Shown: positions 1,172-6,690 of the stretch, one piece after another | Position numbering within the stretch: position 1 is the first letter of the stretch | How the letters are laid out: every line of letters begins with the position of its first letter | Source: Planctomycetota bacterium | GTDB taxonomy: Bacteria; Planctomycetota; Phycisphaerae; Tepidisphaerales; Tepidisphaeraceae | NCBI GenBank assembly: GCA_038746835.1 | Contig: JBCDKH010000009.1 | Span: 1-40,020, forward strand | Direction of reading: 5' to 3' | DNA: 40,020 nucleotides | Notes under the pieces: model-generated | Databases searched by the model: none | The model's input: only the letters and a program-made list of their open reading frames with translations | Told to the model about the DNA's origin: nothing | Made by a program: the position numbers and the translations under genes

Positions 1172-1573
1172 TCAGCGGTTCACCATAAACAACGCCACCT
1201 GCTTGAAGAACGGCATCGTCGCCGTAGCAAAGTCAGCAGGAACGTCGCCAGCGTCGGCGGCTTTGGTGATGGCGGAGCGCATCAGTTTCAGCCAGCGACC
1301 CGCTGCCGCGTCGTCGATGGGGAAGGGCATGTGCCGCATTCGCAACCGTGGGTGGCCGCGTTCCTGGGAGTAGGTCGACGGGCCGCCGAAGCGTTGGATG
1401 AGGAAGAGCTTCAGGCGTCGTTCGGCACCGTCCCAGTCGTTGTCCGGGTACATGGGCGACAGGATGTCGTCTTGGCGGACGCGTTCGTAGAACCGCCGGA
1501 CGACCGAGGCGATCCCGTCTTCGCCGACGGCGTCGTAGAGCTTGAGAATCGGATCAACCGGCAGCTCGGCCAC
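1172..1573 (-). CDS. Group II truncated haemoglobin
   Basis: This 133-residue protein has the length and motifs of a TrHb2 globin: RFYERVRQDDILSPMYP (helix B to CD region, with the B10 tyrosine) and then RFGGPSTYSQERGHPRLRMRH, written here in two parts because of its length: GGP-x-x-Y, then GHPRLRMRH with the proximal histidine. The G8 tryptophan is in RWLKLM. Such globins bind haem and O2 or NO in the cytoplasm. I chose the GTG at 1573 because the upstream gene stops at 1582-1584, 8 bases before it, and because the longer frame to 1735 overlaps that gene with unlikely sequence. It faces the truncated GspK-like gene, with the two stops 6 bases apart. It is probably cotranscribed with the small membrane protein upstream. 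Confidence 0.88.
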   Translation of the reverse strand: MAELPVDPILKLYDAVGEDGIASVVRRFYERVRQDDILSPMYPDNDWDGAERRLKLFLIQRFGGPSTYSQERGHPRLRMRHMPFPIDDAAAGRWLKLMRSAITKAADAGDVPADFATATMPFFKQVALFMVNR

Positions 1574-1581
1574 TCCAAAGA

Positions 1582-1908
1582 CTAGTGACGATCGCGACGC
1601 CGGCGGCGGCGGTCTTCGAGGACGAACGGCTGCGGGTTGACGTAGCTCCAGAGGGCGATGATCGACGTCACGCCGGCCATGGCGACGGGCAGAATGCCCT
1701 TCGGGTCTGCCTTTCGGACGTTGTCGCCGCAACATGCCCGTGCCAGTCCGTAGCCGACGGCAACCGCTGCGATGGCGGCGGCGCCGGGAGCCAGCACCTT
1801 CTTGGCGAACTCGATTTCCTGCTCGTCGGCCTCGTTTTCCTTGAATTTGCCCAGGAGTTCTCGTGCGTCACGGAGCGTCTGCATGCCGGCTAATTCTACG
1901 AACGCCAT
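1582..1908 (-). CDS. Small hypothetical membrane protein
   Basis: This protein of 108 residues (100 if the internal ATG at 1884 is used) matches no family I recognise. The N-terminal third is charged and helical (RDARELLGKFKENEADEQE). Two hydrophobic segments follow, APGAAAIAAVAVGYGLA and ILPVAMAGVTSIIALWSYV, separated by a short loop containing RACCGDNVRKADPK. The tail is very basic (EDRRRRRRDRH), which by the positive-inside rule would stay in the cytoplasm. It ends 8 bases before the truncated haemoglobin start, so the pair probably forms an operon. The adjacent CC pair in the loop could bind a metal or haem, but nothing else supports that. Its upstream region (1909-1993) is shared with the divergent photolyase-like gene and must hold both promoters. 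Confidence 0.6.
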   Translation of the reverse strand: MAFVELAGMQTLRDARELLGKFKENEADEQEIEFAKKVLAPGAAAIAAVAVGYGLARACCGDNVRKADPKGILPVAMAGVTSIIALWSYVNPQPFVLEDRRRRRRDRH

Positions 1909-1993: not shown

Positions 1994-3286
1994 GTGGAAA
2001 AAGCAATTCAGATCGACACGTCGTCGCGCGAAAGAATCCAAAGCCGGCTGTCAAAGCTGTTTCCCGCAGCGGCCGAGCGCGATGACCGGCTCTCACCGCA
2101 CCTCGGCGGCCTCGCAGAGGCGAAGGGTCGGCTGGATGCCGTCCGGCCGGAGCAATACGCCAAGACGCGGAACCACCTCGTCGGAGCGGTCACGCAGCTT
2201 TCGCCGTACATCCGACATCGCGTGATGAGCCCGTCGCAGGTGCGGGACGCGGCACTCATGAGAGTCTCGCACCCTCGACAGGCCGGCAAGCTCGTGCAGG
2301 AGCTGGCTTGGCACGACTTCTTTCAGCGCGTCTACGCGGCCGTCGGGGAAGAGGGCGTCTGGGATGATCTTGAGCCATGGAAGACCGGTCACGGACCGAG
2401 CGACTATGCCGACGAACTGCCTGCCGAGATCGAGGCGGGTGAGACGGGCGTCGATTGGGTCGATCACTTCGCCCGGCAGTTGTCCAAAGAGGGTTGGCTG
2501 CACAATCACGCTCGGATGTGGCTTGCCAGCTACGTCGTTCACGTCCGACGCGTCCGTTGGCAGGAGGGTGCTAGGTGGTTTCTTCGGCACCTGGTCGACG
2601 GCGATCCGGCGAGCAACAACCTCAGCTGGCAGTGGGTCGCGTCGACGTTTTCGTCCAAGCCCTACTTCATGAATCGCGGCAACGTGGTAAAGAACGCCGG
2701 CGACCTGTTCCCACCGCATGCGAAGAACGACCCAACCGACAAGCCATACGAACTGCTCGCGGCCGATCTGTTTCGCGACGGACCCGAAGCGACACAGGAC
2801 GTGGGTGAGGGTCTCGGCATCGACTTGAAGCGTGTCGCCGCCGAGAGTTCAGGAGGATCGCGACGACAAGATGGCTCGGTGACTTGGGTCCACGAAGACA
2901 TGCTGCGTCCTGACCATCCCGCGGTCGACGGTACCGATGCCGCAGTCTTCGTGTTCGATGACGAGGCGATCGACGATGTCGGCATGACGCTCAAGCCGCT
3001 GGGCTTCGTTGTCGAGTGCCTTGCCGATTTGCAGAACGTCACGCTGCTTCGATCTAATGACTTTGGCGGGTCCGTCGCCGCGGCGGTGCGATCGTTCGCC
3101 GAGGGCCGGCCAGTTGTAACGGGGCAAACGCCCTCGGGCCGACGTCGGGCGATCGGGCGTGAGTTGGACGCGACAACGATTGAGGACGAATCGTTCGTCG
3201 AGCTGGAGGGTCGGGTCGATCTCAAGCGGTTCAGCCGCTACTGGCGATCGGCGGGGAAAGCCTTGCATGCGGCCGGGCACGCGTAG
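1994..3286 (+). CDS. Photolyase/cryptochrome homologue with swapped domain order
   Basis: The N-terminal 250 residues are a recognisable photolyase FAD-binding domain: TQLSPYIRHRVMSPSQV, ELAWHDFFQRVYAA, GWLHNHARMWLASYVVH and then DGDPASNNLSWQWVAS with PYFMNRGNV. The usual N-terminal alpha/beta antenna domain is missing from its normal place. From about residue 295 to the end, however, the sequence resembles that domain: VTWVHEDMLRPDHPAV matches the photolyase opening W-x-R-x-D-L-R-x-x-D-x-P-A, AAVFVFDDEAI matches its next strand, and FSRYWRSAGKAL matches its closing helix. The order therefore looks permuted. It probably binds FAD and acts in light-driven DNA repair or photosensing. The GTG at 1994 is preferred; an in-frame GTG at 1961 would add 11 residues. 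The divergent partner is the small membrane protein and globin pair. Confidence 0.82.
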   Translation: MEKAIQIDTSSRERIQSRLSKLFPAAAERDDRLSPHLGGLAEAKGRLDAVRPEQYAKTRNHLVGAVTQLSPYIRHRVMSPSQVRDAALMRVSHPRQAGKLVQELAWHDFFQRVYAAVGEEGVWDDLEPWKTGHGPSDYADELPAEIEAGETGVDWVDHFARQLSKEGWLHNHARMWLASYVVHVRRVRWQEGARWFLRHLVDGDPASNNLSWQWVASTFSSKPYFMNRGNVVKNAGDLFPPHAKNDPTDKPYELLAADLFRDGPEATQDVGEGLGIDLKRVAAESSGGSRRQDGSVTWVHEDMLRPDHPAVDGTDAAVFVFDDEAIDDVGMTLKPLGFVVECLADLQNVTLLRSNDFGGSVAAAVRSFAEGRPVVTGQTPSGRRRAIGRELDATTIEDESFVELEGRVDLKRFSRYWRSAGKALHAAGHA

Positions 3287-3302: not shown

Positions 3303-4661
3303 ATGGATGACGCCGGCGACGAGTCGAACGAACCGCGGCAGCGCTCGTGGCTCTTTACCGGTCCTTTCGATAAGCGGCTGGCGTTTTTCACTGACACCAT
3401 GCGGGCCATCAGCCGGCATCGCGACCCGCAGGAGCTGGTCGCCGACTACTACCGGCGCATGTACGAGGCGTTTCCGACCGACGGCTATCTCGCGGTGAGC
3501 CGGCGCGATCTGTCTTCGCCGAAGTACAAGATCACCCGCAGCAGCACTTGGGGCATCGACTTCAATCCGTGGCTCGACGGCGATACCAAGCCGCTCTTCG
3601 ATCGTGGGCTTCTCGGCAAGCTGATCTACGAAGGGCAACCCGCAATTTTCGACGATCTTCGCGGGGCGTACGAGCCCGATGATCCGGCGGCGGAGTACCT
3701 CGACGGCATGCGGTCGATGACGGCCGTCCCGATGTTCGATGACGGTGAGTCGCTGAACATGGTCGTCTTCTTGCTGAAGGAGCCCAACGGCTTCGATCGC
3801 GATCGACTGCCGGATCAGGTCTGGGTGCACAACCTCTTCGGCCGGGCGACGAACACACTGGTTCTTCGGAAGCAGATCGCCAAGACGAATCATCAGCTTC
3901 GCGACGCCAACGAGGCGGTTGGTAAGATTCAGAAGACGCTGCTGCCAGAGCGATTGCCCGAGATCACGGGCGTTCGGCTCGGAACGTTTTACGACTCGAG
4001 CGAGCAGGCGGGGGGTGACTACTACGACTTTTTCGAGATTCCTGGTGGAAAGCTGGGCATCTTCATGGGTGACGTCAGCGGCCACGGGACGCCGGCGGCG
4101 GTGCTGATGGCCGTTGTGCACGCGATCGCCCATGCAATCGAAAACCCGCCGCACCCCGATCCGCCCGGTCGGCTGCTGGCCCACCTGAACCACCACCTCT
4201 GCGAGCGGTACACGCGTCGCGGCGGGACTTTCGTCACCGCGTGGTACGGCATCCTCGATCCAAAGACGCGCAAGCTCACGTTCGCCAACGCCGGCCACCC
4301 GCCGCCACGGTTGAAGCACGACAACACGCGCGACGACGACAAGGCCGGCAAGACCGGGCCGCTGGTGGCGGGGCGGGCCCGGAGTCTGCCGCTGGGTATC
4401 GATCCGCACGAGACGTTCCCCGAGGGCGAGGTTCAGCTAGAGTCGGGCGACGTGCTCGTCGCGTATACAGACGGCATCACTGAAGCCCGCGAGCATGGCG
4501 GCCGCGGAATGTGGGGCATCGAGGGTTTGGATGCCTCGCTGTCAAACTGTCGTTGCGGGCCGAAGACGCTGATCGATGACCTGATCCAGAAGCTGACCGA
4601 TTACACGGGCGGCAGCGCGCCGGAGGACGACCGCACGATCGTCACGGCCAAGCTCGACTGA
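3303..4661 (+). CDS. GAF-PP2C (RsbU/SpoIIE-type) serine phosphatase
   Basis: This 452-residue protein has an N-terminal GAF-like sensor (about residues 30-190), a short coiled linker (KQIAKTNHQLRDANEAVGKIQ) and a C-terminal PP2C/SpoIIE phosphatase domain. Metal-binding and catalytic motifs are visible: GGDYYDFF (about 236-243), GDVSGHG (about 256-262), YTDGITEA (about 388) and EDDRTI near the end. Proteins of this type dephosphorylate anti-sigma-factor antagonists in partner-switching stress pathways, with the GAF part sensing a ligand or redox state. No STAS or HPK-type anti-sigma partner is visible nearby, so its target is probably encoded elsewhere. The ATG at 3303 is chosen; the longer frame from 3159 overlaps the photolyase-like gene. 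It faces the coiled-coil gene, whose stop lies 2 bases away. Confidence 0.87.
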   Translation: MDDAGDESNEPRQRSWLFTGPFDKRLAFFTDTMRAISRHRDPQELVADYYRRMYEAFPTDGYLAVSRRDLSSPKYKITRSSTWGIDFNPWLDGDTKPLFDRGLLGKLIYEGQPAIFDDLRGAYEPDDPAAEYLDGMRSMTAVPMFDDGESLNMVVFLLKEPNGFDRDRLPDQVWVHNLFGRATNTLVLRKQIAKTNHQLRDANEAVGKIQKTLLPERLPEITGVRLGTFYDSSEQAGGDYYDFFEIPGGKLGIFMGDVSGHGTPAAVLMAVVHAIAHAIENPPHPDPPGRLLAHLNHHLCERYTRRGGTFVTAWYGILDPKTRKLTFANAGHPPPRLKHDNTRDDDKAGKTGPLVAGRARSLPLGIDPHETFPEGEVQLESGDVLVAYTDGITEAREHGGRGMWGIEGLDASLSNCRCGPKTLIDDLIQKLTDYTGGSAPEDDRTIVTAKLD

Positions 4662-5625: not shown

Positions 5626-6690
5626 ATGCTGCCGAACGTCACCAACTTCCTGCAGGCCTTTCGCGGCGTGCCGGCGTGGTTGATCGTGCTGGAACTGGTG
5701 ATCATCGGGGCGGTCGTCTTCAGTGTAATTCGGTTCCTGCAAGGGACGCGCGGCGTTCGCGTGCTCAAGGGCATCGTCGTCCTGTTGATCACGTTTTACC
5801 TCGCCGTCCGCATCCTCGGCGGCGTGTTCGACACGGCCCGACTGGGCATTCTGTTCCAGCAGTTCCTCTTCTACGCCAGCTTTGCGGCCATCGTTGTGTT
5901 CCAGCCAGAGCTCCGCCGCGCGCTCATGCGGCTGGGCGAAACCCGACTGCTCCGAGCGGCCACCGGTGGGACCGACGAGATCGCATCGGTCGTGGATGCT
6001 TGCACGACGTTGTCCCGGCGTCGGATCGGGGCGTTGCTCGCGTTCGAGCGAGACGAAGGCCTCGCTGGATTTGCGGAGGATGCGACCCGCATCGACGCCG
6101 AAGTCTCGGCCCAGCTGCTGACGACGATCTTCTACCCCAACACCTCGCTCCACGACCTCGGCGTCGTGATCCGAGACGCGCGCATCGCCTACGCCGGCGT
6201 TCAGTTTCCGCTGGCCGAGAGTGGCGAGCTGACCGAACGCGAGCTTGGCAGTCGACACCGCGCGGCTGTTGGCCTGAGCATGAACGTCGACGCAGTCGTG
6301 GTGGTCGTTTCGGAGGAGACGGGCGACATCAGCGTCGCCGAGGGTGGCCGGCTTCATCGTCGACTGTCTCCGGAGCGGCTTTTGGAGATGCTGCACGAGT
6401 TGTTGAACCGCAGCGTGCCGCTGGCACAGTCGGATCGGCCTTCGACGATCACGGCGTCGGATCGCGAGACCTCGTCGGCTGCCACGCGGCTCGACAGCCT
6501 CAGCACGAAGCGGCCCACGTCGAACGCGATGAAACGTCCGGCCACACTTCCGCCGGCCAAGCCGCAAACACTCAATCTCAAGGCCCCGCGTCCGCACAAG
6601 CCGGCGACGCCCAGCGTCGCGCCGGCCGACATCCGCGAGACCAAGCCCGTCGGGAAGCCAGACGAGGCACCGCGTAAGAAAGCAGGCTGA
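5626..6690 (+). CDS. cdaA: CdaA-type diadenylate cyclase with altered DGA motif
   Basis: This enzyme makes the second messenger cyclic di-AMP from two ATP at the membrane. The N-terminus has three hydrophobic segments (VPAWLIVLELVIIGAVVF, VLKGIVVLLITFYLAVRI, FQQFLFYASFAAIVVF), followed by QPELRRALMRLGETRL, the signature linking the membrane part to the DAC domain. The RHR motif is intact (R210-H211-R212 in RHRAAVGLS), as is VVSEETGDISVAEGG. The other catalytic motif, normally LHDGAV, reads LHDLGV here (D177 kept; G and A replaced by L and G). The C-terminus carries about 85 extra Pro/Lys-rich residues. YbbR (cdaR) follows after 60 bases; glmM, a usual third partner in Firmicutes, is absent. 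The ATG at 5626 was chosen because the membrane part begins just after it. Confidence 0.9.
   Translation: MLPNVTNFLQAFRGVPAWLIVLELVIIGAVVFSVIRFLQGTRGVRVLKGIVVLLITFYLAVRILGGVFDTARLGILFQQFLFYASFAAIVVFQPELRRALMRLGETRLLRAATGGTDEIASVVDACTTLSRRRIGALLAFERDEGLAGFAEDATRIDAEVSAQLLTTIFYPNTSLHDLGVVIRDARIAYAGVQFPLAESGELTERELGSRHRAAVGLSMNVDAVVVVVSEETGDISVAEGGRLHRRLSPERLLEMLHELLNRSVPLAQSDRPSTITASDRETSSAATRLDSLSTKRPTSNAMKRPATLPPAKPQTLNLKAPRPHKPATPSVAPADIRETKPVGKPDEAPRKKAG

Follow-up and report, generated by a model that had tools for sequence, protein, structure and literature searches.

Does ORF 1994-3286 encode a photolyase whose two domains have changed places, and how would such a protein have arisen and what would it do? 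The textbook photolyase has two domains, always in the same order. In the window, which is the whole 40,020-nucleotide stretch of planctomycete DNA analyzed here, the ORF begins with the FAD domain, and no alpha/beta domain stands before it according to Pfam, AlphaFold, and hhalign, as the original prediction had stated. The helical FAD-binding domain with its photolyase signature places the protein in the cryptochrome/photolyase family. In class I enzymes the alpha/beta antenna domain precedes the FAD domain, and the window protein falls outside this class because its own domain is C-terminal; its order is the reverse one, with the FAD domain first and the photolyase alpha/beta domain second. 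The original prediction also held that all known photolyase classes have the opposite order. This has to be corrected, since the reversed order was published in 2022 for the picocyanobacterial proteins Phr4/Phr5 of marine Synechococcus and Phr6 of Cyanobium (PMC9426592).

We consider it probable (about 0.7) that the window protein is a DNA photolyase formed by fusion of the gene pair of a two-component photolyase, with an FAD/catalytic unit of the Phr4/short-photolyase type followed by an antenna unit of the Phr5 type. Through the 30-residue linker, the antenna unit would pack against the FAD unit in a manner similar to that of conventional photolyases; if a chromophore is bound, it would hand light energy to FADH-. 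The FADH- would then split cyclobutane pyrimidine dimers (CPDs) by electron transfer, and the Trp triad would photoreduce the flavin.

The features of the gene are collected in Table 1. An alternative in-frame GTG start at 1961 would lengthen the protein by 11 aa. Full-length homologues include L002, L003, L120, and L121, among others. The AlphaFold model of the whole protein has a pLDDT of 92.4 and a pTM of 0.92, so that the relative placement of both domains is confidently predicted, and the linker at about residues 261-290 is disordered in the model. A Foldseek search with the full model aligned photolyases to a portion of the protein only (TMq no higher than 0.47); this is what a sequential method should give on swapped domains.

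Table 1. Positions of the photolyase gene and its parts in the window.
Feature	Position	Strand	Remarks
Fused reverse-order photolyase gene	1994..3286	+	430 aa, GTG start, no internal stop
Helical FAD/catalytic domain, residues 31-261	2084..2776	+	Pfam, phmmer, AlphaFold
W129, equivalent to E. coli W306, outer Trp of the electron-transfer triad	2378..2380	+	Alignment
Span with the four Fe-S cysteine positions	2456..2731	+	Cys in 81/87 relatives
W155, P240, A243, and D246 in place of the Fe-S cysteines	2456-2458, 2711-2713, 2720-2722, 2729-2731	+	Alignment
M175, equivalent to E. coli M345	2516..2518	+	Met in 87/87 relatives, as in CPD photolyases
W189, equivalent to E. coli W359, middle triad Trp	2558..2560	+	87/87 relatives
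W212, equivalent to E. coli W382, inner triad Trp	2627..2629	+	86/87 relatives
Interdomain linker, residues 262-294	2777..2875	+	Low confidence, pLDDT about 56-62 at residues 261-290
C-terminal alpha/beta domain of putative antenna type (PF00875-like), residues 295-426, five-stranded	2876..3271	+	Profiles, AlphaFold
WVHEDMLRPDHPAV, residues 298-311, beta-1 motif	2885..2926	+	Matches the start of the conventional N-terminal domain
FSRYWRSAGKAL, residues 413-424, closing helix motif	3230..3265	+	Aligns with the conventional V-F-T-P-F-x-K segment

The FAD domain is readily recognized. Pfam places FAD_binding_7 at residues 101-227 (E 1.7e-28, 99.8 bits against a cut-off of 27 bits), and phmmer matches the domain to E. 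coli photolyase 1dnp at 4.7e-18. The best solved relatives are the E. coli and A. nidulans photolyases, which align over their C-terminal halves. In the AlphaFold model the domain is all-helical with pLDDT mostly above 90. Alignment with the A. nidulans enzyme assigns E103 and W106 as the active-site Glu and Trp. E. coli N341 is matched by N171, and D372, D374, N378, and W384 are also kept. Six residues (N171, M175, W189, D202, N208, and W214) are invariant in 87/87 relatives, and E103 and W212 are kept in 86/87. The position of W129 is more variable, with Trp in only 4/87 relatives and usually Tyr. Two arginines of E. coli are replaced by histidine: the FAD-contact residue R278 by His107, found as His in only three family members, the window protein among them, and R342 by His172, which is His throughout the family. 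The FAD-contact residues are otherwise mostly kept.

Unlike Phr4 and Phr6, all of which are reported with four Fe-S cysteines, a trait that is not the defining order, the window protein has none, a loss that the original prediction did not mention. All four cysteines are absent in 6 of the 87 relatives and all four are present in the others, and this all-or-none loss supports the idea that the four act together. The six members are the window protein, L002, L003, L031, and two Anaerolineales proteins (L068 and L101), and they form one branch of the FAD tree with a support of 92. The joint loss marks the window protein as a member of a cluster-less subclade, which is not described for Phr4/Phr6.

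What does the enzyme repair? Met at position 345 of the E. coli numbering is a CPD-type residue, and eukaryotic (6-4) enzymes have His at this position. The N341/M345-type active site together with the Trp triad favors light-driven CPD repair, and the residues indicate that the window protein would act on CPDs. Repair of (6-4) photoproducts by the same architecture is an unlikely alternative. It was proposed for Phr4/Phr5/Phr6 from their Fe-S cysteines; the authors expect (6-4) repair by Phr4/Phr5, and loss of phr4/5 reduced survival after UV-C, not UV-B (PMC9426592). In E. coli, Phr4/Phr5 gave similar protection against UV-C in the light and in the dark (PMC9426592). The Fe-S argument does not carry over to the window protein, which lacks all four cysteines. 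The equivalent of M345 is invariant in the family, in contrast to the His of the eukaryotic (6-4) enzymes, and for the related SPL/Phr7 proteins CPD photolyase activity is reported, as cited in PMC9426592 and PMC9649867.

The loss of the Fe-S ligands as a set and the replacement of R278 by His could instead mark a change of function to a cryptochrome-like blue-light sensor in which repair has been lost. The window genome has another photolyase of conventional order, and a GAF-SpoIIE phosphatase gene follows the photolyase gene on the same strand, both of which would fit a sensor. We regard this as quite unlikely, as E103, W106, N171, M175, and the Trp triad are retained, and Phr7 also lacks the Fe-S cysteines, yet is reported as a CPD photolyase (PMC9426592).

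Relatives of the fused photolyase were gathered by a genome scan, whole-genome searches, and a plasmid search. The FAD domain of the window protein lies inside a clade with Synechococcus/Cyanobium proteins, set apart from the SPL-type and conventional outgroups in the FAD tree as one branch of 87 rows (support 85, not starred). This clade represents a two-component photolyase with members in several phyla. The pair of FAD and antenna parts was found in Cyanobacteria, Chloroflexi, Acidobacteria, Verrucomicrobia, Actinomycetota, Planctomycetota, Deinococcus, and Methylophilaceae, which is a lower bound because the genome scan used the best 80 of 586 loci. The search for homologues of the same order suggested in the original prediction was successful: 19 of the 89 non-conventional tree rows are fused. 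Fifty have an adjacent antenna gene, and 20, including two SPL-type outgroup rows, have none nearby. One fused homologue (L002 1405-2595) has a shortened antenna domain, with about 103 aa between the motifs and the middle part missing. The IMG/VR viral contigs contained no relatives of the window protein, and in the phage records only the FAD domain was matched, over no more than 38% of the query.

In the relatives, the antenna gene usually sits just downstream of the FAD gene. Spacing in the 50 adjacent pairs was measured from the start codon nearest the FAD stop. By this measure, the antenna start overlaps the FAD stop by at most 8 nt in 25 pairs, mostly in the ATGA-type arrangement, and a gap of 0-50 nt separates the two in 14 pairs. 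For eight loci that lack an antenna gene in the 2.5 kb around the FAD gene (L060, L063, L072, L074, L087, L093, L115, and L119; genomes G470-G477), the search was extended, and an antenna gene was found elsewhere in the genome in 8/8; two controls with an adjacent gene were also recovered by this whole-genome search.

The two parts also occur together. Among 145 cyanobacterial genomes, the FAD gene (at least 290 bits) is present in 35, and the antenna gene (above 100 bits) is present in 35/35 of these and in 1/110 of the others, 36 genomes in total (Fisher p = 7e-33, a value that ignores shared ancestry). Linkage does not explain this co-occurrence, since 9 of the 35 pairs are unlinked. In Planctomycetota, both parts are present in the same 3 of 392 genomes, and among 100 relatives again the same three have both. 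At the thresholds used, no antenna gene was found in Prochlorococcus-like genomes with the Phr7 type or in the planctomycete with the SPL-type protein L033. The single cyanobacterial genome of the 145 with an antenna gene and without a clade FAD gene is that of L156 (G553 contig C97), where no clade FAD gene lies within the 5 kb fetched around the antenna gene.

The separate or adjacent genes, the scattered fusions, and the co-occurrence together make it most likely that the reversed order arose by fusion of an operon, not by circular permutation. Where the antenna start overlaps the FAD stop, changing a single base can be enough to merge both frames, and the reversed order is then the gene order of the operon. 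The fused state requires 7 changes on the FAD tree, at least 2 of them forced by starred branches, and the direction of change is unrooted. The original prediction had offered a true circular permutation as one of two origins. Such an event would begin with a tandem duplication inside one conventional gene, whose outer halves are then lost; with a cut at the domain boundary, each half would read internally as in conventional photolyases, and this is what the two halves show. We nevertheless find it improbable, because the relatives are mostly separate genes, fusions turn up at scattered places in the tree, and none of 122 loci contained a tandem or double-antenna intermediate. The other origin, a short photolyase that regained the domain at its other end, came close, as the data fit a short FAD gene fused to the antenna gene downstream of it; its premise of a lost domain did not hold, as the relatives examined have the domain in trans.

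A further reading, which we hold to be unlikely, is that the short photolyases of the clade do not lack an antenna but serve as catalytic subunits in an obligate two-subunit photolyase, with a separate gene for the antenna subunit. If this is true and the split state came first, both the conventional and the reversed photolyases would be independent fusions of once separate subunits, and such an ancestral split would change the accepted picture of the origin of the family.

The identity of the C-terminal domain required family profiles, as residues 290-430 of the window protein have no match in Pfam or NCBIfam. Among 52 relatives of the domain, PF00875 is the best-represented Pfam family (37/52), and the window copy alone scores nothing. 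We built a domain profile from 67 relatives out of the fetched loci and ran it over all ORFs of at least 60 aa of those loci. Outside the family it found only two truncated copies and photolyase-sized ORFs, the latter matched at their N-terminal part (best 7.6e-7). In the PDB, the family profile matched 27 distinct sequences, and 27/27 are photolyase/cryptochrome N-termini (best 1.4e-4). Comparison by hhalign with a profile of 33 conventional N-terminal domains gave 97.4% (E 1.5e-11) over 135/143 columns, and six column-shuffled controls and one reversed control all gave 1% or less. As the match runs from end to end, the domain has no internal permutation. In the hhalign comparison, RFSRYW / FSRYW of the window domain pairs with the V-F-T-P-F motif that closes the conventional domain. 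Both motifs named in the original prediction were thus read correctly, WVHEDMLRPDHPAV as conventional beta-1 and FSRYWRSAGKAL as the closing segment.

The structure prediction that had been proposed as a check gave a five-stranded alpha/beta domain with helices between the strands, with a pLDDT of 93.3 for the domain alone. Foldseek with this lone domain reached a best E of 0.03, with a plant cryptochrome and a class II photolyase on top and with photolyases or cryptochromes making up 6 of the 7 best matches (TM 0.45-0.54 for those). The antenna identification therefore rests on the sequence profiles. The Foldseek matches also include the nucleotidyltransferases CoaD and PanC, none of the matches being below E 0.001, and 4/52 relatives of the domain touch Usp weakly in Pfam, so that another HUP/Usp-type alpha/beta domain merely resembling an antenna domain had to be considered. 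This is very improbable, and we rejected it on the Pfam matches of the relatives, the PDB profile matches, and hhalign: all 27 PDB matches and all outside ORFs listed are photolyase/cryptochrome N-termini or photolyase-sized ORFs, and the hhalign coverage includes the closing motif. The profiles support the C-terminal domain as a divergent photolyase alpha/beta (antenna-type) domain, as originally predicted. CofH was not found above the curated cut-off in the window genome, so 8-HDF is not indicated as the antenna chromophore; the candidates are MTHF, a flavin, or no chromophore. An assembly or frame artefact joining two genes can practically be dismissed: the source assembly is a draft of 335 contigs, but a single open frame runs through the entire gene, and independent fused homologues occur in L002 and L003 (same family), Deinococcus, Methylophilaceae, and Cyanobium.

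Among known systems, Phr4/Phr5 and Phr6 have the same arrangement as the window protein, an FAD domain followed by a photolyase alpha/beta domain, encoded either by two genes or by a single fused one. Phr4/Phr6 belong to the same FAD clade, as judged from the organisms and the architectures of the Synechococcus/Cyanobium loci. Their hosts are cyanobacteria, whereas the host of the window protein is a planctomycete. Class I CPD photolyases (E. coli PhrB 1dnp and A. nidulans 1tez) consist of the same two domain families and have the Trp triad and the N341/M345-type active site, but in the opposite domain order, and the antenna domain of the window protein, at about 130 residues, is shorter than usual.

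SPL/Phr7 proteins resemble the window protein in their N-terminal FAD domain, the lack of an N-terminal alpha/beta domain, and the HNHARM motif of the active site (Xu et al., 2021, as cited in PMC9426592 and PMC9649867), and Phr7 likewise lacks the Fe-S cysteines (PMC9426592). According to both papers, they end in a short "Z-domain"; the window protein ends in a full antenna-type domain and is thus outside this group, which has no alpha/beta domain beyond the Z-domain. The SPL-type proteins L033 and L122 form the nearest branch outside the clade in the FAD tree. The Z-domains of such proteins (encoded at L033 1264-2586 and L122 2525-3757 and in L145-L149 and L150-L154) have a GFFxFK motif near the end and a G-x-x-QIVT motif. 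Compared with the antenna domain by hhalign, they gave 37% with 7 sequences and 10% with 12, and shuffles gave 2% or less. These values are suggestive of the Z-domain being a degenerate antenna domain.

The window gene is an ordinary member of the reverse-order group and is set apart by the loss of the Fe-S ligands. The reversed order itself was already known; the breadth of phyla, the co-occurrence of the FAD and antenna parts, and the cysteine-less subclade (6/87) are new. The separate genes and reverse fusions of this clade show the antenna unit to be capable of working as a separable module, and the idea of short photolyases simply without an antenna domain is thereby qualified. The split, fused, Fe-S-containing, and Fe-S-less forms are natural controls for the contributions of antenna and cluster.

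Upstream of the photolyase gene lie a bacterial-like (truncated) globin gene (1172-1735, minus strand) and a small ORF, also on the minus strand. Immediately after the photolyase gene, and on its strand, comes the GAF + SpoIIE phosphatase gene (3303-4661), and a diadenylate cyclase gene (5626-6690, DAC domain E 2.1e-36) lies further downstream. An operon with repair genes was rejected on these neighbors. One other photolyase is encoded in the window genome (L157 873-2240, G000 contig C4), with PF00875 followed by FAD_binding_7, and by eye it looks class II-like.
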